Notes under the pieces: generated by a model | What the model was told of the DNA's origin: nothing | The model's database searches: none | Seen by the model: the letters and a program-made list of their open reading frames with translations, nothing else | In this document: positions 3,260-57,609 of the stretch, one piece after another | Position numbering within the stretch: the first letter of the stretch is position 1 | Layout of the letters: each line of letters starts with the position of its first letter | Assembly (NCBI RefSeq): GCF_052324685.1 | Contig: NC_135211.1 | Coordinates: 51,597,682-51,661,681, forward strand | DNA: 64,000 nucleotides | Origin: Brachyhypopomus gauderio | Lineage: Eukaryota; Chordata; Actinopteri; Gymnotiformes; Hypopomidae | Reading direction: 5' to 3' | Program-made: the position numbers and the translations under genes

Positions 3260-3716
3260 TGTATTGTCAGTCTATGTATGGGGTGGGTTTGAGACTTCTA
3301 TTTTGACGAGGTGTAGTTTGAGGTTCATTTTGATGATGTCACCAACACTGTGTTAGTTCAGGAAGTGCATTGTCAGTATATGAGAAGAGAGTCTCATGTC
3401 TGCATGTTGTAATCAATTGCCATCTGTTACATCTCTCGCCTTTCAGATGTACTGTCGGTATGTTAGTTTCTCAACATAAGTTTGAATCATATTCTGTTTA
3501 TATTTGTTGCTTGTTGCTTAGATGACATGTATTACGATGGTACAGCTCTAACTCTGCCATATAGCAATTGTTAATATGCTATTTTATTCTTTGTAGTTTT
3601 ACCCTACTTCCATTCAACCATTAAACAAGAAGAACTGGAATCCTCTTCAGCGTGGTGATTGGGAGAGGAGTTGTTTGTCTGCTGACTTGTGCAGGGCGTA
3701 TAAGGGTGGCAGAACA
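3260..3716 (+). repeat. 5' LTR of BEL/Pao retrotransposon
   Basis: 457 bp beginning TGTATTGTCAG and ending GGCAGAACA. On reading it is identical base for base with 12796-13252, so the insertion is very young or the pair was homogenised. The flanks share CTTT if the terminal T is counted as target (3257-3260 and 13253-13256), a weak 4-bp duplication candidate. Confidence 0.95.
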
Positions 3717-12795: not shown

Positions 12796-13252
12796 TGTAT
12801 TGTCAGTCTATGTATGGGGTGGGTTTGAGACTTCTATTTTGACGAGGTGTAGTTTGAGGTTCATTTTGATGATGTCACCAACACTGTGTTAGTTCAGGAA
12901 GTGCATTGTCAGTATATGAGAAGAGAGTCTCATGTCTGCATGTTGTAATCAATTGCCATCTGTTACATCTCTCGCCTTTCAGATGTACTGTCGGTATGTT
13001 AGTTTCTCAACATAAGTTTGAATCATATTCTGTTTATATTTGTTGCTTGTTGCTTAGATGACATGTATTACGATGGTACAGCTCTAACTCTGCCATATAG
13101 CAATTGTTAATATGCTATTTTATTCTTTGTAGTTTTACCCTACTTCCATTCAACCATTAAACAAGAAGAACTGGAATCCTCTTCAGCGTGGTGATTGGGA
13201 GAGGAGTTGTTTGTCTGCTGACTTGTGCAGGGCGTATAAGGGTGGCAGAACA
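12796..13252 (+). repeat. 3' LTR of BEL/Pao retrotransposon
   Basis: 457 bp matching the 5' LTR at every base I compared. It is preceded by a purine-rich run (GGCGGGGAG, about 12787-12795) suitable as polypurine tract. Immediately after it the right half of the pogo-like element resumes. Confidence 0.95.
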
Positions 13253-40923: not shown

Positions 40924-41374
40924 GCGATTCGTAGCGGACGCTTCGCCAAGGGCAGTCACCTCCCAGACGCAGGACTGAGCGCGTCGGATCTGCCCATCGT
41001 CGTGGGTTCGGGGCACTCGGTCCTGTTGGCACCCCGGGATGGGTAGTGCCCTTGGAGGGGGCGTCTGTCACGTTGAGGACCCCGGCCCCTCCCTTTTGGG
41101 CGTGTGTCAATGTTGTCTACGTGCTTTGTCTGCGTCAGTGGATATTCGTGGTTAGGGTTTTGTCGTGTGATTAATAAGTCTCACCTGTGAATCGTCTCGT
41201 GATCACGTGGGGCTAATGTGGATGGTCTATTTAATGTGCGCTCGCGCAGTGTCCTGTGCTCGTCGTTGTCTAATGTCCACACGTTGTTGTGTGCTTGTGT
41301 CTGTTTATCATGCGCTATTGCGCAACATATATATATATAAGTAAAGTGACGTTTGCTGCCACAAAGGATTTGTG

Positions 41375-44300
41375 ATATATATAATAGGATGGGGTACATG
41401 TAACTTTGTTATCAAAGCCGTCTTGACAGGTTTATTGCCCCCCAATAAAACTTTATGACCCCAATAAATTTTTATGACCCCTCCCCCTTATCGTGTTCTG
41501 TACATTGTGGTCATGGCATCTAATAGTAATTGTTTTTTTATCAGGAGTCCCTAAATGCTCCTCTTTGAAGTAATATGTGTGTGTGTGTGCCAGGTACACA
41601 GATTGCCCCCCCCCATTGTCATTTTGAAGTATAAGTTGTGTGACCCTGGCCCAACCTGAGAGTGCCTCTAATTTAAATTAGTTGATTTTTATCAGAAACA
41701 TATGGCTGTAGAGAGTCGTTTGATCAGGACCATCGTGAGACCCCTTTATCTAAATTAGTTTAGATAGTGTCTTCCATGGAAAATATTTTAGAGAAATAAA
41801 AAGTTTAATTACCTTAAAATATTTACAGCCTAAAAAGTCCTGTGGTTCATAGCTGATATGGGTGTAGAGAGTCGTTTGATCAGGACCATCGTGAGACCCC
41901 TTTATCTAAATTAGTTTAAATGTTGAGCCATCTAACGCAATTACCGTTGCAATCACCTGTCTGCATCAACTTCACACAGATAGTGTCTTCCATGGAAAAT
42001 AAATATATTTTAGATAAGTAAAAGTTAAATTGTCTTAAAATATTTACAACCTAGAAAAGTCTCGTGGATCGGCAGTTATCTCAATCAACTGGTTCGTACC
42101 GGTTATGTACAGATTTGGTCTAGATTTTGTCTACTGGACTCGGCCTGATGGGCGTATTGCCGGATTTGTGTTCGACCCCCCCCCCCCCCCCCCCCCTTCT
42201 CACTATAACATCCCACTTCTCACTAAAACATCTCCGGGCGATCTATTGTGAACTCGTGCGGATCAAATGTTAACTTTTGACTGTAATAATCGGAATCTGT
42301 TCCGAAAATGGTGTTCCCTGCTAAAACTTTCACAATTTTTGTTAACGTTTTGTTCTCTGAAGCGCATAGCATACGAGTTATCCTGACTTTAGGTTTTAAC
42401 AGTCCATTTTCTCTGATGTGTTAAAATCCCACAAGCTTAAAGAAAGTTTATTATATTACAACATTAACTAACCTGACTTTAAAAATAATTAGAACCAACT
42501 AAAATTTTACCGTCAATTGTCTTTGAAGTATAGGGTACGCGTACTAACCTTAAGCTTAAAGCTTGTGTTTTTGTCAGAGCCATGCTTCCTGACACAAGGA
42601 AAACACCCAAATGACTAGCCCTGGCTCACCTCTTACATGTCCCCGCCCTGTCCACTGATGACGTGAGCATGGTCACTGACAGTTATGAGCTTGCTAATAA
42701 ACCGGCATCATAAATATTTCTTCCTAATCTTGTTTTTAACGGTTGTCTTCACATTTTATATCACAAATGACAGCAGCATTTTAAGGTCTTGTACAAGCAT
42801 TCACTTTACAGCCATAGGGATATAAAACATTTGTTTTCTGCGTACAATGTACTGATGTAAACAAGTGAAAAAACTTCTGTCCATTTAGAAATGTATTTTG
42901 AAGTTGAACAAGTAAAACTAAAATCTACAACCTGTTTTTAAAGGTAATTGCAACTTTCAAGTCTTAACTTTACACCACCTCCGGCAAAATCTTTTTTAAA
43001 GTAAACATCTATTTACTCAGAATATTTTTGTTTGTTTGGCTATTTATTAAAGCACTTATGAAACTTTCATAAATATTTTATCTTCCTAAACCTTTGTTTT
43101 TGAAATTCCACATATTTGAAACATGTAAACATACTTTGCTTGCCCTACTTTCCGAATGATGCTGAAACTGCAGCCTTGACGTTGCAATTCATAGTTGTTC
43201 TATTTGACCTAACCTAAACCCAAACTTGCTGGAATTATTCATTTTACAACTGTGTAAAAACACGCCCATTATTGTGTTACATTATTAGATACAAACATTA
43301 TTGTGTTACATTCATTCTCTTTTATTTTTGACTCATAAAAGTTAAACAGTACATTAATTAAAGCTTGCCCTATTATGAAGCACAGCATTATACATTTTAA
43401 TATCATGTTAAAAATGTCAAACGGGTAAAAATAGGGTTTGAAGACAAATATTGTTTTTATTTCACACAAATCTGAGCTGCAAATTTTAGTTAGTTAATGA
43501 CATTCTAGCTAAATTCTTACAAATTGGCCTGTCATTGAGTATAGTCTTTTCCATCAGGCGTCGGTACCGCCGTAACCCACTTTTTAGCACATTTGCTGTG
43601 AATTGAATGTCTTTTGACACAGAGGTGAATAGCACTGAAGAGCTCCTGCCAATTTAGACGGTAAACGTACCCAAACAAGTGTGATATTAATTTATATCAA
43701 CGTAACAAATTGCCATACGAGGGAAAACACATGCTAATTCTACCTGCATCTTGGTCACTGTTATCTTTTTGTTTCCATATGCTCAAGATTGGGATTTCAC
43801 AGCTAAATAACTACCCTTTTTGTTGCTTTTCATGGTTTTACATAACGTCCACACGTATTAAATATATAATCAAATTTCAGAACTCTACACTCAACCTATT
43901 CGCCTATTCATGTATTTTTTATTTGGACACACGTATTGCACTCATGTATTTATTTATTTTGCAAAACTATTTCCCCTGAAATCCGCCAAAGACATCGCGG
44001 CGGCCTTCTTCGTTCGCTCACGTATAATCAACCCGTGTCTTTACTGTCAGAAATGCAGTCGATAAAAGCTGGCGCAGTGATGAGTTTTATTTCACAGGAT
44101 GAGCTTACACAGAAAAAACAATGCATGTATAAGCTATGGTGACTTATGATCCAAAGCGATAGCGGCAAACATTTAGCCTTTTATCTAAAAACACAAATCA
44201 GCCGGTCTGCTAATTTTGGGTGGCCGCCATCTGTGTTTCCTCACATCCCCCATTCAGTTCTGTTTAGAGAAAATACAAAGTTGATCATTCAAATTGCCAA

Positions 44301-45183
44301 CAGTTTTAGTCACAAAACAGCGGTTGAACACAGGGCGAATTAGATTATTAAACAAGCCATGTCTCAATAACTACTTGAAATTCAAGGTTCCATTACAAAC
44401 ATTTGGTTACCGGCACGTTTTTATTTTATTTTATTTTTTACCCATCATTTTGTTAACGTTAGCGCAAGGTTTTTTGCACACAAATAGGCCTATATATACA
44501 CGTATGTATGAATTAGTTACACATAAAGGACTTTTGTTAAGATTTTTACTGGCGTAACTAAATGTATTACATGACACATCCCAGCATCAGCCCCTCCATC
44601 AGGAAGTAGACCAATAGGGGAGGAGCATAGTAGCAGCGCTGTGATCGCACCCAAAACACATCACACATCAGTCAGCCGAGCACGGGTTTGGACGAAACTT
44701 CATGGATCTACATTGTCCGTAAGGATTTTTTCACCATAACAGAACTGCACGTACCATGATTTTGATAGCAGGAGCAAGATTCTAGTAGCAGCACAAGGTT
44801 TTTCTTTATTTTTTTCTGCAATATAGGTCACCATTGCAATTGCTCTGGCTAGTCTGAGGACATTTCAGGGCAATTTGTGAGTGAGTTCGGAGAGATGAGT
44901 GAAGTGTGTTAAGTGGTACGATCTTCTTTTGCAAAAATGTTTCAGTAAGTCAAACCAATCAAAGACACTGAATTTGCGGTAAACGTTTGCAAGCATCCCG
45001 ATTATGGATACAACTTACAAACCATGAATTAGGAATGCTAAATGTTATCACAAACCAGGTAATTGGCTTATTCAACCTTTTCAAAAACCATACACACATT
45101 ACCTCAACATATAATATGCATTATTTCAAGTTGTGCCAATATTCTGCAAAACATAAACAATACTATTGTTTACATTCTAATTC
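41375..45183 (+). repeat. Left arm of the palindromic element
   Basis: 3,809 bp. Contains a tandem duplication of about 165-215 bp (TGTAGAGAGTCGTTTGATCA at 41707 and 41869; TAGTGTCTTCCATGGAAAAT at 41766 and 41979), a C run of about 22 at 42177-42197, AATAAA signals and, near the inner end (about 44575-44760), a GC-richer segment with CCAATAGGGG. No credible genes. Confidence 0.9.
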
Positions 45184-45668
45184 TAATAGAAAGTATCTAC
45201 TCAAAAATACAACTGTCTGAAACACAAGACAAGCAAGCAACTTTTAGTTAAACTTTTGTGTTTCAGACAGTTGTATTTTTGAGTAGATACTTTCTTTTAA
45301 GAATACAATAGTTAAAGAAAAAAAACACTGATGACCTCTATGTCAAAAAAGAGAAAACATTATGACAATAAGAATGAAGCACTGCTAAGTGATAATTGAG
45401 CTGACTTTTGGTTTGTTATCATTTTTAACCACATGACAATTTTATTGCTTGTGTGTAATCATGTCTCTACTTATGAGGTTTTTCTTAAGTAGTGGATCGT
45501 CACCACCGGGGGAGGACCGGGTGATACACTAATAATCAATCTAAAGATCTGCATAATGTTCTTTTATCTGTACTTTCTTTTATGTACTCTAAATGCAACA
45601 AATTAACCTCTGAAGTTCTTAAAAAATGTCCCTGGCTGAGTTTTCTACATATCAGCATGGTTGTGTGT

Positions 45669-45713
<45 letters not shown>

Positions 45714-46205
45714 ACCTAAAATTCTGCCATGTTGAAGTCAGTCTCAAAAGAGAGCCCCATTTTCTGTCAGAGCAAGTTAAGTTTTGACTGATCACATGAT
45801 GTTGTTAAGATAGATTTGGGCTCCTCAGCCATGACTACCGCATGAAACACCTCCTGCCGCATGTAGTCAGTCCTCCCTGGTTGGTCTGAATTAACAAACC
45901 CCTGATAATAAATGGCTGGTTAAAGTGGAATGGGAGGGGGTGGGGGGGGGGGGTGCTCATTCCTTCCTCACAGGTGGTATTAACACTTGGAGATGGGGGT
46001 TTTACAGCAAACAGTTGAGATGTTGCCCGTATATGCCGATTCTGAGACAATGGCATGCTTTGCCTAGTAGTCGGATGTAATAAAGATTTCACCTTTGAAG
46101 TAAAATAACCTTAATTCTAGAAACTGTGTATATGGAAACGTATTTGTGGACACAGTGATAATCATTTACACTAAATTGATCATAATGTTCAACTAAGTGC
46201 CCATA

Positions 46206-46236
<31 letters not shown>

Positions 46237-47566
46237 CTTTTTTCACAAACGGCCCGATACTTCAGCTATGGAGATGTGTGATTAGCTGTTCATTGTATGA
46301 CCATTTGGATTTCTTAACCTCTAGTGTTTTGGATTTATTCAGTCTTGGATTTATTCTAGTTCTTCAATCTTATCTATCACGCTGAACCAGAAAAGAAAGA
46401 AAAAAAGGTTAGGAGGACTTGTTAAAGTTCTTTACTGCGAGGAAAAAATGGAGTTTGGTTGTGATTACTGCATTGTGTTGTACTGACTGAGGAAGTCACT
46501 AGCGTGATTACAAAACAGAATCGCTGTGGGCGCATAAGAACACTTAGTTCGTTAATCTGGTGGATTTCTAATTGGTTTAGACATTGTGAATACACATGTA
46601 ATGACTGGTAGGCATAGAAGATTTAAAGGAAAACTATTTTTATTGTTCACTTTGTCATATATAACACCATTATTACATTTACTGTCAGATGACCCGTCTG
46701 AGTACAAATTATGCTGAAAAATTAAATAAATAAATTTTAAAAAGTTGATTTGCAGAAATTTAGTAGAGTGAAATAGTATGTAACTAATAATAATGTTTTG
46801 CAGAATAATGACACAACATGAAATTCATATTATATGTTGGAAGTAATGTGTGCATGGTTTTGAAAAGGATGAAGAAGCCAATTTTCTGGTTTTCTGTAAA
46901 ATGTTACATTCCTAATGCAATGGTTGTTGGCAATATCCATACGTGGCATGCATGCAAAAGTTTACCACAAATTCAGTCTCTGAGTTTCAAATCTGAATCA
47001 TACATTGATTGAGTTGTATGCAAAAACAAGCAATCCTCACCAAAAAGTGTGGATGGGGTAAAGAGCACATGCCTGTAGCCAAAAGTTTCTAAAGGAATCT
47101 CAATTTCTGTAGTACTTCATTTAAACACATCTTATTTCATAAGGAAATCCGGCCCAGCTTCTGTAGCTATTTTATGATAAAAACTATTGGCACTTTGAAT
47201 GTTCAACTTTGCATTGTTTCTAAACAGAAGCAACCTGGAAGTGCATGAAAACACTGAATTGTTATCAGATGAAGGAGGTCTCTGGCTGTTATTGCTGCAA
47301 CGTGTGGTACTAACTGGAAAAAAGTCACTGTAGTCTGAATACAGACTTACTGTGGCAGCCTAACTGGTGGTTTTCTACTCTGTTTAGACTTTGTGAAGAG
47401 AAGTAAAGCAATTTTGGCAGGCCTTGAAGATTTTAAAAGAAAAATCGTAGAAATAATTCACTTTGGGCATATAAAACATCTTTGTTACATATTACTTGTA
47501 GATGGATCATAACACCAGGTTCTAATGATCCTGTAAAACAGTTGATTTACAAAAAATTTGTAAAAC
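45184..47566. other. Central spacer of the palindromic element
   Basis: It starts with a perfect 40-bp hairpin (45188-45227 against 45256-45295), then has (GT)n at 45662-45710, a G run near 45938-45955 and a (TA)n/poly-T run at 46201-46236. 46590-47010 is a diverged direct copy of about 47380-47800, which extends into the right arm. No coding potential was recognised. Confidence 0.8.
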
Positions 47567-50500
47567 GAATTAGAATGTAAACAATAGTATTGTTTATGTT
47601 TTGCAGAATATTGGCACAACTTGAAATAATGCATATTATATGTTGAGGTAATGTGTGTATGGTTTTTGAAAAGGTTGAATAAGCCAATTACCTGGTTTGT
47701 GATAACATTTAGCATTCCTAATTCATGGTTTGTAAGTTGTATCCATAATCGGGATGCTTGCAAACGTTTACCGCAAATTCAGTGTCTTTGATTGGTTTGA
47801 CTTACTGAAACATTTTTGCAAAAGAAGATCATACCACTTAACACACTTCACTCATCTCTCCGAACTCACTCACAAATTGCCCTGAAATGTCCTCAGACTA
47901 GCCAGAGCAATTGCAATGGTGACCTATATTGCAGAAAAAAATAAAGAAAAACCTTGTGCTGCTACTAGAATCTTGCTCCTGCTATCAAAATCATGGTACG
48001 TGCAGTTCTGTTATGGTGAAAAAATCCTTACGGACAATGTAGATCCATGAAGTTTCGTCCAAACCCGTGCTCGGCTGACTGATGTGTGATGTGTTTTGGG
48101 TGCGATCACAGCGCTGCTACTATGCTCCTCCCCTATTGGTCTACTTCCTGATGGAGGGGCTGATGCTGGGATGTGTCATGTAATACATTTAGTTACGCCA
48201 GTAAAAATCTTAACAAAAGTCCTTTATGTGTAACTAATTCATACATACGTGTATATATAGGCCTATTTGTGTGCAAAAAACCTTGCGCTAACGTTAACAA
48301 AATGATGGGTAAAAAATAAAATAAAATAAAAACGTGCCGGTAACCAAATGTTTGTAATGGAACCTTGAATTTCAAGTAGTTATTGAGACATGGCTTGTTT
48401 AATAATCTAATTCGCCCTGTGTTCAACCGCTGTTTTGTGACTAAAACTGTTGGCAATTTGAATGATCAACTTTGTATTTTCTCTAAACAGAACTGAATGG
48501 GGGATGTGAGGAAACACAGATGGCGGCCACCCAAAATTAGCAGACCGGCTGATTTGTGTTTTTAGATAAAAGGCTAAATGTTTGCCGCTATCGCTTTGGA
48601 TCATAAGTCACCATAGCTTATACATGCATTGTTTTTTCTGTGTAAGCTCATCCTGTGAAATAAAACTTATCACTGTGCCAGCTTTTATCGACTGCATTTC
48701 TGACAGTAAAGACACGGGTTGATTATACGTGAGCGAACGAAGAAGGCCGCCGCGATGTCTTTGGCGGATTTCAGGGGAAATAGTTTTGCAAAATAAATAA
48801 ATACATGAGTGCAATACGTGTGTCCAAATAAAAAATACATGAATAGGCGAATAGGTTGAGTGTAGAGTTCTGAAATTTGATTATATATTTAATACGTGTG
48901 GACGTTATGTAAAACCATGAAAAGCAACAAAAAGGGTAGTTATTTAGCTGTGAAATCCCAATCTTGAGCATATGGAAACAAAAAGATAACAGTGACCAAG
49001 ATGCAGGTAGAATTAGCATGTGTTTTCCCTCGTATGGCAATTTGTTACGTTGATATAAATTAATATCACACTTGTTTGGGTACGTTTACCTTCTAAATTG
49101 GCAGGAGCTCTTCAGTGCTATTCACCTCTGTGTCAAAAGACATTCAATTCACAGCAAATGTGCTAAAAAGTGGGTTACGGCGGTACCGACGCCTGATGGA
49201 AAAGACTATACTCAATGACAGGCCAATTTGTAAGAATTTAGCTAGAATGTCATTAACTAACTAAAATTTGCAGCTCAGATTTGTGTGAAATAAAAACAAT
49301 ATTTGTCTTCAAACCCTATTTTTACCCGTTTGACATTTTTAACATGATATTAAAATGTATAATCCTGTGCTTCATAATAGGGCAAGCTTTAATTAATGTA
49401 CTGTTTAACTTTTATGAGTCAAAAATAAAAGAGAATGAATGTAACACAATAATGTTTGTATCTAATAATGTAACACAATAATGGGCGTGTTTTTACACAG
49501 TTGTAAAATGAATAATTCCAGCAAGTTTGGGTTTAGGTTAGGTCAAATAGAACAACTATGAATTGCAACGTCAAGGCTGCAGTTTCAGCATCATTCGGAA
49601 AGTAGGGCAAGCAAAGTATGTTTACATGTTTCAAATATGTGGAATTTCAAAAACAAAGGTTTAGGAAGATAAAATATTTATGAAAGTTTCATAAGTGCTT
49701 TAATAAATAGCCAAACAAACAAAAATATTCTGAGTAAATAGATGTTTACTTTAAAAAAGATTTTGCCGGAGGTGGTGTAAAGTTAAGACTTGAAAGTTGC
49801 AATTACCTTTAAAAACAGGTTGTAGATTTTAGTTTTACTTGTTCAACTTCAAAATACATTTCTAAATGGACAGAAGTTTTTTCACTTGTTTACATCAGTA
49901 CATTGTACGCAGAAAACAAATGTTTTATATCCCTATGGCTGTAAAGTGAATGCTTGTACAAGACCTTAAAATGCTGCTGTCATTTGTGATATAAAATGTG
50001 AAGACAACCGTTAAAAACAAGATTAGGAAGAAATATTTATGATGCCGGTTTATTAGCAAGCTCATAACTGTCAGTGACCATGCTCACGTCATCAGTGGAC
50101 AGGGCGGGGACATGTAAGAGGTGAGCCAGGGCTAGTCATTTGGGTGTTTTCCTTGTGTCAGGAAGCATGGCTCTGACAAAAACACAAGCTTTAAGCTTAA
50201 GGTTAGTACGCGTACCCTATACTTCAAAGACAATTGACGGTAAAATTTTAGTTGGTTCTAATTATTTTTAAAGTCAGGTTAGTTAATGTTGTAATATAAT
50301 AAACTTTCTTTAAGCTTGTGGGATTTTAACACATCAGAGAAAATGGACTGTTAAAACCTAAAGTCAGGATAACTCGTATGCTATGCGCTTCAGAGAACAA
50401 AACGTTAACAAAAATTGTGAAAGTTTTAGCAGGGAACACCATTTTCGGAACAGATTCCGATTATTACAGTCAAAAGTTAACATTTGATCCGCACGAGTTC

Positions 50501-51381
50501 ACAATAGATCGCCCGGAGATGTTTTAGTGAGAAGTGGGATGTTATAGTGAGAAGGGGGGGGGGGGGGGGGGGGGGGGGTCGAACACAAATCCGGCAATAC
50601 GCCCATCAGGCCGAGTCCAGTAGACAAAATCTAGATCAAATCTGTACATAACCGGTACGAACCAGTTGATTGAGATAACTGCCGATCCACGAGACTTTTC
50701 TAGGTTGTAAATATTTTAAGACAATTTAACTTTTACTTATCTAAAATATATTTATTTTCCATGGAAGACACTATCTGTGTGAAGTTGATGCAGACAGGTG
50801 ATTGCAACGGTAATTGCGTTAGATGGCTCAGAACATTTAAACTAATTTAGATAAAGGGGTCTCACGATGGTCCTGATCAAACGACTCTCTACACCCATAT
50901 CAGCTATGAACCACAGGACTTTTTAGGCTGTAAATATTTTAAGGTAATTAAACTTTTTATTTCTCTAAAATATTTTCCATGGAAGACACTATCTAAACTA
51001 ATTTAGATAAAGGGGTCTCACGATGGTCCTGATCAAACGACTCTCTACAGCCATATGTTTCTGATAAAAATCAACTAATTTAAATTAGAGGCACTCTCAG
51101 GTTGGGCCAGGGTCACACAACTTATACTTCAAAATGACAATGGGGGGGGGCAATCTGTGTACCTGGCACACACACACACATATTACTTCAAAGAGGAGCA
51201 TTTAGGGACTCCTGATAAAAAAACAATTACTATTAGATGCCATGACCACAATGTACAGAACACGATAAGGGGGAGGGGTCATAAAAATTTATTGGGGTCA
51301 TAAAGTTTTATTGGGGGGCAATAAACCTGTCAAGACGGCTTTGATAACAAAGTTACATGTACCCCATCCTATTATATATAT
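47567..51381 (-). repeat. Right arm of the palindromic element
   Basis: 3,815 bp, inverted copy of 41375-45183. Example differences (left versus right in left-arm orientation): CAGCATT/CAGGATT near 43384, GACGGT/GAAGGT near 43658, GCGCAGTGATGAG/GCACAGTGATAAG near 44071, TTGAGCC/TTCTGAGCC near 41924, and the C/G run length. Confidence 0.9.
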
Positions 51382-51439
51382 TTTGTGTCTCGTCCTTCAC
51401 GCCGCACCCACCGTCACAGCCCAGTTTTGTTGTGTTTCC

Positions 51440-51700
51440 TGGGCATTATGGACATCAAAGAGGAATTCTACAGCATCGTAGGTTTGTCTTTAATTCACAC
51501 GGACAATAAAGAAATTAAGCAAAGGAGAAGCAATATAGCCTATAACGAACTTCATTCCATTTACATTTTAAGGATTTCCTAGAGTGATTGATGGAACCCA
51601 CATATGCTACCTATTACAGCACCATTAAAACATGAAGGTGATTACATTAACAGAAAATCCATCCATAGAATTAATGTACAGGTACTAACCTTTATAAGAA
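51440..51700 (+). pseudogene. PIF/Harbinger transposase fragment, copy 1
   Basis: Reads DIKEEFYSI, then after about 90 bp of possible intron the FPRVIDGTHI motif (first catalytic Asp), then after a one-base frame change APLKHEGDYINRKSIH, all typical of HARBI1-type transposases. Most of it (51519-51696) is repeated at 56814-56991 on the other side of the satellite. Confidence 0.75.
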
Positions 51701-52069: not shown

Positions 52070-55000
52070 GAAGGATCAGGCACCACACATGGTGTGATGG
52101 GAGGATGAAGACACCACACATGGTGTGATGGGAGGATGAAGGATCAGACACCACACATGGTGTGATGGGAGGATGAAGACACCACACATGGTGTGATGGG
52201 AGGATGAAGACACCACACATGGTGTGATGGGAGGATGAAGGATCAGACACCACACATGGTGTGATGGGAGGATGAAGGATCAGACACCACACATGGTGTG
52301 ATGGGAGGATGAAGACACCACACATGGTGTGATGGGAAGGATGAAGACACCACACATGGTGTAATGGGGAGGATGAAGGATCAGACACCACACATGGTGT
52401 GATGGGAGGATGAAGGATCAGACACCACACATGGTGTGATGGGAGGATGAAGACACCACACATGGTGTGATGGGAAGGATGAAGACACCACACATGGTGT
52501 AATGGGGAGGATGAAGGATCAGACACCACACATGGTGTGATGGGAGGATGAAGGATCAGGCACCACACATGGTGTGATGGGAGGATGAAGACACCACACA
52601 TGGTGTGATGGGAGGATGAAGACACCACACATGGTGTGATGGGAGGATGAAGGTTCAGACACCACACATGGTGTGATGGGAGGATGAAGGATCAGGCACC
52701 ACACATGGTGTGATGGGAGGATGAAGGATCAGGCACCACACATGGTGTGATGGGAAGGATGAAGACACCACACATGGTGTGATGGGAGGATGAAGACACC
52801 ACACATGGTGTGATGGGAGGATGAAGGTTCAGACACCACACATGGTGTGATGGGAGGATTAAGACACCACACATGGTGTGATGGGAGGATGAAGACACCA
52901 CACATGGTGTGATGGGAGGATGAAGACACCACACATGGTGTGATTGGGAGGATGAAGGTTCAGGCACCACACATGGTGTGATGGGGGGATGAAGGATCAG
53001 ACACCACACATGGTGTGATGGGAGGATGAAGACACCACACATGGTGTGATGGGGAGGATGAAGGTTCAGGCACCACACATGGTGTGATGGGGGGATGAAG
53101 GATCAGACACCACACATGGTGTGATGGGAGGATGAAGACACCACACATGGTGTGATTGGGAGGATGAAGGTTCAGGCACCACACATGGTGTGATGGGAGG
53201 ATGAAGACACCACACATGGTGTGATGGGAGGATGAAGGTTCAGACACCACACATGGTGTGATGGGAGGATTAAGACACCACACATGGTGTGATGGGAGGA
53301 TGAAGACACCACACATGGTGTGATGGGAGGATGAAGACACCACACATGGTGTGATTGGGAGGATGAAGGTTCAGGCACCACACATGGTGTGATGGGGGGA
53401 TGAAGGATCAGACACCACACATGGTGTGATGGGAGGATGAAGACACCACACATGGTGTGATGGGGAGGATGAAGGTTCAGGCACCACACATGGTGTGATG
53501 GGGGGATGAAGGATCAGACACCACACATGGTGTGATGGGAGGATGAAGGATCAGACACCACACATGGTGTAATGGGGGGATGAAGGATCAGACACCACAC
53601 ATGGTGTGATGGGGAGGATGAAGACACCACACATGGTGTGACGGGGAGGATGAAGACACCACACATGGTGTAATGGGGAGGATGAAGGATCAGACACCAC
53701 ACATGGTGTGATTGGGAGGATGAAGGTTCAGGCACCACACATGGTGTGATGGGGGGATGAAGGATCAGACACCACACATGGTGTGATTGGGAGGATGAAG
53801 GTTCAGGCACCACACATGGTGTGATGGGGGGATGAAGGATCAGACACCACACATGGTGTGATTGGGAGGATGAAGGTTCAGGCACCACACATGGTGTGAT
53901 GGGGGGATGAAGGATCAGACACCACACATGGTGTGATGGGAGGATGAAGGTTCAGGCACCACACATGGTGTGATGGGGGGATGAAGGATCAGACACCACA
54001 CATGGTGTGATTGGGAGGATGAAGGTTCAGGCACCACACATGGTGTGATGGGGGGATGAAGGATCAGACACCACACATGGTGTGATTGGGAGGATGAAGA
54101 CACCACACATGGTGTGATGGGAAGGATGAAGACACCACACATGGTGTAATGGGGAGGATGAAGGATCAGACACCACACATGGTGTGATGGGAGGATGAAG
54201 GATCAGGCACCACACATGGTGTGATGGGAGGATGAAGACACCACACATGGTGTGATGGGAGGATGAAGACACCACACATGGTGTGATGGGAGGATGAAGG
54301 TTCAGACACCACACATGGTGTGATGGGAGGATGAAGGATCAGGCACCACACATGGTGTGATGGGAGGATGAAGGATCAGGCACCACACATGGTGTGATGG
54401 GAAGGATGAAGACACCACACATGGTGTGATGGGAGGATGAAGACACCACACATGGTGTGATGGGAGGATGAAGGTTCAGACACCACACATGGTGTGATGG
54501 GAGGATTAAGACACCACACATGGTGTGATGGGAGGATGAAGACACCACACATGGTGTGATGGGAGGATGAAGACACCACACATGGTGTGATTGGGAGGAT
54601 GAAGGTTCAGGCACCACACATGGTGTGATGGGGGGATGAAGGATCAGACACCACACATGGTGTGATGGGAGGATGAAGACACCACACATGGTGTGATGGG
54701 GAGGATGAAGGTTCAGGCACCACACATGGTGTGATGGGGGGATGAAGGATCAGACACCACACATGGTGTGATGGGAGGATGAAGACACCACACATGGTGT
54801 GATTGGGAGGATGAAGGTTCAGGCACCACACATGGTGTGATGGGAGGATGAAGACACCACACATGGTGTGATGGGAGGATGAAGGTTCAGACACCACACA
54901 TGGTGTGATGGGAGGATTAAGACACCACACATGGTGTGATGGGAGGATGAAGACACCACACATGGTGTGATGGGAGGATGAAGACACCACACATGGTGTG

Positions 55001-56465
55001 ATTGGGAGGATGAAGGTTCAGGCACCACACATGGTGTGATGGGGGGATGAAGGATCAGACACCACACATGGTGTGATGGGAGGATGAAGACACCACACAT
55101 GGTGTGATGGGGAGGATGAAGGTTCAGGCACCACACATGGTGTGATGGGGGGATGAAGGATCAGACACCACACATGGTGTGATGGGAGGATGAAGGATCA
55201 GACACCACACATGGTGTAATGGGGGGATGAAGGATCAGACACCACACATGGTGTGATGGGGAGGATGAAGACACCACACATGGTGTGACGGGGAGGATGA
55301 AGACACCACACATGGTGTAATGGGGAGGATGAAGGATCAGACACCACACATGGTGTGATTGGGAGGATGAAGGTTCAGGCACCACACATGGTGTGATGGG
55401 GGGATGAAGGATCAGACACCACACATGGTGTGATTGGGAGGATGAAGGTTCAGGCACCACACATGGTGTGATGGGGGGATGAAGGATCAGACACCACACA
55501 TGGTGTGATTGGGAGGATGAAGGTTCAGGCACCACACATGGTGTGATGGGGGGATGAAGGATCAGACACCACACATGGTGTGATGGGAGGATGAAGGTTC
55601 AGGCACCACACATGGTGTGATGGGGGGATGAAGGATCAGACACCACACATGGTGTGATTGGGAGGATGAAGGTTCAGGCACCACACATGGTGTGATGGGG
55701 GGATGAAGGATCAGACACCACACATGGTGTGATTGGGAGGATGAAGGTTCAGGCACCACACATGGTGTGATGGGGGGATGAAGGATCAGACACCACACAT
55801 GGTGTGATTGGGAGGATGAAGGTTCAGGCACCACACATGGTGTGATGGGGAGGATGAAGGATCAGACACCACACATGGTGTGATTGGGAGGATGAAGGTT
55901 CAGGCACCACACATGGTGTGATGGGGGGATGAAGGATCAGACACCACACATGGTGTGATGGGAGGATGAAGACACCACACATGGTGTGATTGGGAGGATG
56001 AAGGTTCAGGCACCACACATGGTGTGATGGGGGGATGAAGGATCAGACACCACACATGGTGTGATGGGAGGATGAAGGATCAGACACCACACATAGTGTA
56101 ATGGGGGGATGAAGGATCAGACACCACACATGGTGTGATGGGAGGATGAAGGATCAGACACCACACATGGTGTGATGGGGAGGATGAAGACACCACACAT
56201 GGTGTGACGGGGAGGATGAAGACACCACACATGGTGTGACGGGGAGGATGAAGACACCACACATGGTGTAATGGGGAGGATGAAGGATCAGACACCACAC
56301 GGTGTGATGGGGAGGATGAGGGATCAGACACCACACATGGTGTGATGGGGAGGATGAAGGATCAGACACCACACATGGTGTGACGGGGAGGATGAAGACA
56401 CCACACATGGTGTGATGGGGAGGATGAAGGATCAGGCACCACACATGGTGTAATGGGGAGGATGC
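52070..56465. repeat. 4.4-kb satellite with 1,647-bp higher-order repeat
   Basis: About 115 short units built on CACCACACATGGTGTGATGG plus GAGGATGAAG with or without GATCAG or GTTCAGG inserts, giving mixed 31-, 37- and 38-bp periods. Each unit has a CACCA-CACA-TGGTG mini-hairpin. About 52443-54090 is repeated in tandem at 54090-55737 with an exact offset of 1,647 bp, so the array evolved by segmental as well as unit duplication. Minus-strand open frames across it are a by-product of the repeat. Confidence 0.95.
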
Positions 56466-56649: not shown

Positions 56650-57609
56650 TAAACCAGAGTTTACCAACACGTCATCATGACGTGTCCTTTCCTCGAAGAT
56701 CATGTGGATATTGAAGCTCAGTTTATTCGCCGAGCTCTTCGTTGGGAACACCTTATAAAACCCCGAATAGATGCATACTATCATTTTCATTAAGCAAAGG
56801 AGAAGCAATATAAGCAAAGGAGAAGCAATATAGCCTATAACGAACTTCATTCCATTTACATTTTAAGGATTTCCTAGAGTGATTGATGGAACCCACATAT
56901 GCTACCTATTACAGCACCATTAAAACATGAAGGTCATTACATAAACAGAAAATCCATCCATAGTATTAATGTACAGGTACTAACCTTTATAACCCTTAAT
57001 TAATAATGTACTTATCCTTAATGGTAACAAAAATAACATAGCTATTGTAACTGACCGTTCTCCCCATCAAGATCATGTGTGATGCTTCCCACCTCATCAC
57101 AAATGTTGAAGCCAGATGGCCAGGTTCCATGCATGATTACACACTGTACAACAAATTTAAACAGGGTAGCTTGTGGTAGTTTTGCTAGTTGTTCACATGC
57201 AGTGTAATAGTTAAATCATTGCAAACCCTTGTGCGATTATAGGACACTATGACGGCCTCCTTCATGTAGACAGAGGGTATCCCTGCTTGCCCTATACCTC
57301 ATGACTCCCTATTCAGATCCTGCACCTGGACCACAGTCCCAATACAATCAGGCCCACAGCAAAACCAGGGCAAGAATTGAAATCCAGGCCAGATTCCAGT
57401 GTCTGAAGGGGCTCAGAGTTACCCCTGAGAAGGTGTGCCACATAATAATGGCATATGTGGTATTACACAACATTGTAACCATCCAGGGAGAGCGACAGCC
57501 TACCAACTCGGACATGCCCACAGATGAGAAACCTTACATGCATGTGGGTAACAACAGAGATGGTAGAGTTTTCAGAGACTCCATCTGCAATCACTGCTTT
57601 CCACATTAA
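56650..57609 (+). pseudogene. PIF/Harbinger transposase, copy 2, degenerate
   Basis: Pieces in order: N-terminal DIEAQFIRRALRWEHLIKPR (56712-56770), FPRVIDGTHI (about 56867-56896), IKIMCDASHLITNVEARWPG with the following MHDYTLY (57069-57160, second catalytic Asp), then RGYPCLPYLMTP and ARIEIQARFQCLKG (third catalytic Glu) to a stop at 57607-57609. Frameshifts and a deletion after the N-terminal part break it. A 19-bp duplication (AGCAAAGGAGAAGCAATAT) lies at 56795-56832. Confidence 0.82.

Follow-up and report, generated by a model that had tools for sequence, protein, structure and literature searches.

I found that the palindromic element in the window (the whole 64,000-nucleotide stretch of Brachyhypopomus gauderio DNA analysed here) is supported as a non-autonomous derivative of a Polinton/Maverick transposon, since the outer 0.73 kb of its arms matches the terminal inverted repeats (TIRs) of gene-bearing Polintons. 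Its founding form was probably a complete palindrome of one Polinton end, made by fold-back during replication. The assembly searched was the one that contains the window, 796.5 Mb in size.

The element is 10007 bases long. A single full-length BLASTN alignment joins the left arm with the reverse complement of the right arm at 99.685% identity. The near-identity of the arms described in the earlier note amounts to 6 mismatches and 2 gap openings over 3815 columns, the gaps being one 2-base difference and one 4-base difference, the latter in a poly-C run. The parts of the element and its target are as follows.

41066..41374, plus strand: target LTR, left part
41369..41374, plus strand: target-site duplication TTTGTG, left, abutting the element end
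41375..45183, plus strand: left palindromic arm, 3809 bp (BLASTN, 99.685% to the right arm)
41375..42103, plus strand: left-arm outer part common to full-length Polinton TIRs (arm 1-215, 248-394 and 388-729 at ~90-96%)
42129..42317, plus strand: decayed remnant of a 208-aa ORF of the integrase end (tblastn, E 2e-11, 44% amino acid identity over 63 columns)
45184..45187, plus strand: 4-base filler TAAT at the deletion junction (from comparison with the centres of C1b and C10)
45188..45227, plus strand: left 40-bp stem, what remains of the inner left half
45228..45255, plus strand: 28-nt loop, the palindrome centre (same loop in C10, C47 and C20; reversed in C1b)
45256..45295, plus strand: right 40-bp stem
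45296..47566, plus strand: inner right half, 2271 bp (left counterpart missing in the window, present in C1b and C10)
47567..51381, minus strand: right palindromic arm, 3815 bp (BLASTN)
50651..51381, minus strand: right-arm outer part, the counterpart of arm 1-729
51382..51387, plus strand: target-site duplication TTTGTG, right, abutting the element end
51382..51418, plus strand: interrupted LTR, right part, whose first six bases are the duplication

TTTGTG stands directly outside each end, as had been noticed earlier. When the flanks were joined with a single TTTGTG, they aligned along the full LTR length with a solo LTR inside C47 (268 of 349 columns identical), running from TGTCACG to CGTCACA. 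Since the joined flanks align over the length of this solo LTR, the empty site is a continuous LTR, in agreement with the insertion proposed in the earlier note. To the right, 0.7 kb from the element, lies a 4.4-kb minisatellite (52070-56464; 37-bp unit, ~124 copies), which is flanked by a 190-bp direct repeat (51509-51697 and 56803-56992, 97% identical). A perfect 457-bp direct repeat is also present in the window (3260-3716 and 12796-13252).

The ORF listing (ATG, GTG or TTG starts, minimum 80 aa) gave only six ORFs in the element, all of 85-92 aa and none of 100 aa. When the element was searched for Polinton genes with tblastn (139 ORF pieces, 12 Polinton loci), the matches were confined to TIR pieces and to what is left of the 208-aa ORF. 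The element is without the gene set of an autonomous Polinton/Maverick (PolB, integrase, ATPase, protease, capsid), and the earlier impression that it carries no transposase, polymerase or integrase motif holds. Rfam at gathering scores gave no match in window positions 36000-58000. An old tandem duplication (46456-47229 and 47283-48492, 67-77% identical in pieces) lies in one palindrome half and is found in other copies too. Foldback (FB) transposons have long arms of tandem subrepeats and a ~9-bp duplication. The window element has a 6-bp duplication and only short tandem repeats within its arms, unlike FB elements; the new foldback family that had been considered earlier gives way to a Polinton derivative, with no new foldback superfamily.

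The terminal 501 bases of the element have at least 142 matches in the assembly (best 40 of 73 candidates scored), and at least 12 facing end pairs lie 6-24 kb apart among the matches listed, the window included. Eleven of the 12 pairs were read, leaving out C80. A 6-bp target duplication is present in all 11 elements; this 6-bp reading was made from the flanks, while automated matching gave AT-shifted or 7-base duplications for some. The five palindrome-type copies have five different duplications: TTTGTG in the window, TGTAAG in C10, CATGTA in C1b, CCTGCA in C47, and GACCAG in C4. The same-genome search proposed in the earlier note thus yielded copies with the same termini and 6-bp duplications at other loci, with other flanks and other duplications. 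Both ends are ATATAT in 10 of the 11 elements, while the left end of C12 is ATTTAT. The short end repeat required for jumping-back initiation is therefore present. One end has an extra AT unit relative to the other in a few copies (the left ends of C1a, C10, and C47; the right end of C12), a difference that could come about if jumping-back initiation takes place at a dinucleotide repeat.

The search for a full-length relative with genes was also successful. Copies of ~16 kb have two facing ORF sets, and C138 carries PolB (PF03175, E 1.4e-42), an rve integrase (1.1e-9) with a Chromo domain (1.5e-8), and an adenovirus protease C5 match (2e-4, just above the Pfam cut-off), together with a sub-threshold A32 ATPase match (9.6e-4). 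Judging by these sequences, the full-length relatives are Polintons/Mavericks. They resemble the vertebrate Polintons/Mavericks of Barreat and Katzourakis (2021, PMC8097293, available text) in 6-bp duplications, TIRs, the PolB-integrase-protease set, and a size of ~16 kb, while the window element lacks those genes. According to the same text, the TIRs of intact elements are 46-1447 bp long, compared with 3.81 kb in the window and 4.9-6.5 kb in C4, C1b, and C10, and the ends listed there are (AGT)2, (AG)3, or (AC)3A instead of ATATAT. Arm positions 1-215 of the window element are ~95% identical, and most of 248-729 is 90-96% identical, to C1a, C138, C18, and C74; C21 and C12 match in part. The termini are ~95% identical to those of Polintons that carry genes, and each of the 11 elements read has a 6-bp duplication. 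The giant nonautonomous Polinton/Maverick derivative, which had been one of the earlier suggestions, is supported by these results. In tblastn, arm positions 755-943 match a 208-aa ORF that the full-length copies carry immediately internal to their integrase-end TIR, and both order and orientation agree. The window arm thus probably derives from the integrase end of a Polinton, for which the evidence is weaker than for C4 (see below). In C13, the DNA match extends at ~90% to L009 (C1a) position 1484, beyond the end of the C1a TIR at 1287. An IMG/VR scan with the integrase gave four pattern stretches and confirmed no relative. Polinton copies and fragments are clustered at ~0.85-2.2 Mb of G000:C23 and at ~2.5-2.9 Mb of C18. 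A second Polinton family has at least 16 loci genome-wide and is ~68% identical to the first in the integrase region; the copies match to a nearly equal extent.

The comparison of the copies showed that the ancestor of the window element was palindromic throughout. C1b and C10 each contain its 2.4-kb centre twice, inverted, around one loop, which gives palindrome halves of ~6.1 and 6.5 kb in summed lengths. Each of these copies has an insertion in one half only, and the insertion ends are similar in both. The left half of the window element is without a counterpart of 45296-47566 (2.27 kb), and a 40-bp stem is left beside the 28-nt loop. Thus, the window copy goes back to a complete palindrome, one half of which later lost 2.27 kb. 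This changes the earlier description of TIRs covering three quarters of the element. The arms do make up 7624 bases (76%), but only the outer ~0.73 kb is shared at the DNA level with Polinton TIRs, and the remainder of the arms belongs to the originally complete palindrome rather than to simply long TIRs. Similar cases were found in other copies. C47 keeps an inverted 80-90-bp piece of the same inner half on its left side, and C49 (with its duplicate C20) keeps a 747-bp inverted piece; both can be understood as full palindromes shortened by deletion as well. C49:237720 and C20:5325222 seem to be the same insertion in a segmental or assembly duplicate. They were initially taken as two insertions sharing a deletion but are counted as one locus, since the left flanks agree at all 40 bases compared. 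C16 has the same centre, and its left side contains an inverted stem of ~18 bases as well as an inverted piece of 44 bases; it is 83-89% identical in its longer matches (11-17% diverged). The palindrome is therefore not young. C7, C13, C326, and C33 hold only partial window-family sequences, which are not decisive for the history of the palindrome.

The nearest sequence to a parent of the window family is C14, which is ~80-93% identical in pieces. It follows the loop and departs no more than 3 nt away from the fold point predicted for the family, where 3 nt (CAA/TTG) are shared. This match is only suggestive with regard to the origin of the window family. In C14, tblastn detected no Polinton gene in ~10.7 kb on the left and 3.4 kb near the right side, two stretches 10.1 kb apart, and the stretches read have no Polinton terminus; these gene-free, terminus-free stretches speak against C14 as an intact non-palindromic parent. 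C14 may be a decayed precursor, the source from which DNA was captured, or a copy that happened to be truncated at the fold point.

C4 is a separate palindrome, made of the integrase end. It is 9.9 kb long with arms of 4898 bp that have 1 mismatch, and each half corresponds to the integrase end of all five full-length copies. Its 149-nt loop is contiguous and colinear with the arm in all five full-length copies read, where the equivalent is 146 nt in three and 140 and 133 nt in the other two. The fold closes on a 7-nt inverted microhomology, GAAAGAG opposite CTCTTTC. A flush 7-nt inverted match at a fixed junction has a chance of ~6 in 100,000 at equal base frequencies, though the true chance is higher in this purine-rich stretch. 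The predicted fold point of the window family has a microhomology of only 3 nt, as compared with the 7 nt of C4. C4 is built like a snapback (defective-interfering-like) replication product, and it represents a single event. A query with the integrase region matched no fewer than 10 loci at an identity of 98% or higher, with 1462 or more of its 1907 bases covered (best 40 of 74 candidates scored), and among the loci listed the inverted pair was found in C4 only. No inverted integrase pair within 20 kb was found at the 16 listed loci of the second Polinton family (~68%), and a PolB query gave no inverted pair within 20 kb among the 59 matches listed (best 40 of 70 candidates scored).

How may such palindromes arise? 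It is known that adenovirus-type replication displaces long single strands. In protein-primed strand-displacement replication, a strand that is growing or has been displaced would fold back with its 3′ end at a short inverted microhomology. Extended from there along its own strand as far as the 5′ end, it would become a self-complementary molecule in which the two ends have identical termini. As both termini are valid, the Polinton integrase could insert this molecule and duplicate 6 bp of the target. The palindromic form would then keep on transposing, and the window copy would afterwards have lost 2.27 kb beside its centre, leaving 3.81-kb arms. The fold-back is presumed to have occurred by replication and not by break repair, with the enzymes presumably supplied in trans.

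A fold-back repair in place would lead to much the same structure. A break inside an integrated Polinton would let an end fold at a microhomology and copy to its own terminus, the product being closed via the opposite TIR. Fold-back priming at breaks has been described (PMC10622511 and PMC7467729, available text), and for a single copy like C4 the repair yields the same junction, loop, and intact duplication. However, it requires one more step, in which homology with the other TIR is used. The ends of C4 are identical over 1144 compared TIR sites, unlike the ends of all four full-length copies compared (C1a, C138, C18, and C74, excluding C21), which differ by 3-11 substitutions per 936-1179 sites. 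Moreover, the palindrome of the window family is present at several loci with different duplications, so it is mobile at least there. The different duplications around the palindromic form show that it moves as a palindrome, however it arose. Repair in place is thus unlikely, though less so for C4, and replicative fold-back is the probable origin. As for the TIR proper, no fixed substitution separates the integrase and PolB ends, and so the tip of the right arm of C4 is non-diagnostic of its origin. Two distinct TIR end lineages in the tree were considered and dropped, as the signal came from columns beyond the TIR.

The arms were also compared among copies. In a tree of nine arms, both arms are nearest relatives in 4 of the 4 copies with both arms, with support of 1.00 for C10, 0.97 for the window, 0.88 for C1b, and 0.80 for C47. 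Site patterns were counted for eight arms (the short left arm of C47 excluded) at sites with a base in all eight. Sites shared only by a copy's own two arms number 28 in C10, 6 in the window, and 2 in C1b, and none of the patterns among the eight arms unites an arm with that of a different copy to the exclusion of its own partner. Within copies, the arms differ by 7/3809 (6 in the pairwise alignment), 0/4120, 1/3784, and 11/1549 substitutions, while the arms of different copies diverge by ~0.8-3.5%. These results suggest that the two arms of each copy evolve together. On the other hand, an outer segment of C10 (L017:301-730, ~400 bp) is missing from the window, C1b, and C47; it has 2-7 substitutions (plus gaps) relative to five full-length copies, 1 relative to C4, and 11 relative to C12. 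The C10 end seems to have been exchanged with a full-length Polinton. Since this segment is near-identical to full-length TIRs and missing in its relatives, ends are exchanged by other routes too.

Could the arms have been lengthened by gene conversion between the ordinary TIRs of a non-palindromic element? The sister arms in the tree are near-identical relative to the divergence between copies, so some homogenising occurs. Nevertheless, gene conversion predicts neither an arm-contiguous loop closed by inverted microhomology nor complete palindromes with a 28-nt loop, and I regard it as very improbable. An assembly artefact from palindromic chimeric reads seems more improbable still, given the 6 sites that differ between the window arms, the insertions in one half only of C1b and C10, and the five loci with different flanks and duplications. 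Two elements inserted head to head would also explain the inverted halves, but this has almost no likelihood: the exact 18-base terminus motif was found only at the outer ends and not at the centres of C4, C1b, and C10 (three searched), and one duplication encloses each whole element.

Replicative fold-back has counterparts among known systems. Symmetric defective genomes of adenovirus and palindromic derivatives of the yeast linear plasmid pGKL1 are protein-primed linear DNAs with one end present twice, and one of these defective forms is joined to cell DNA. They are not known to be integrated transposons, unlike the palindromes in this study. Adeno-associated virus (AAV) is a parvovirus and is not protein-primed. 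In the available text of PMC8235507, AAV snapback genomes are self-complementary, contain one genome moiety, and replicate given helper functions, which likens them to the palindromes found here; the latter, in contrast, sit integrated in chromosomes. A template switch was earlier proposed there for AAV genomes of non-unit length. As for Polintons, the available text of PMC8097293 states that Mavericks encode a protein-primed polymerase, that the repeats at the ends should be used for jumping-back initiation, and that particles have not been observed. Protein-primed linear replication of Polintons is inferred from genes and ends. In the open-access literature, with most subscription journals outside the search, I found no report of snapback-type palindromic Polintons.

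It is possible, at a likelihood I would put slightly below even, that snapback genomes produced by Polintons integrate and give rise to long-lasting palindromic satellite lineages, which would parasitise Polinton replication and integration like defective interfering genomes. This tentative reading includes, as joint parts, the same fold point kept across copies that are 11-17% diverged and arms evolving in concert. Integrated one-end palindromes that close on a microhomology and have proper duplications would document protein-primed replication in the genome, and would provide a way to look for this replication mode of Polintons in any well-assembled genome. They would also be a case of defective-interfering-type genomes turned into a transposon family.
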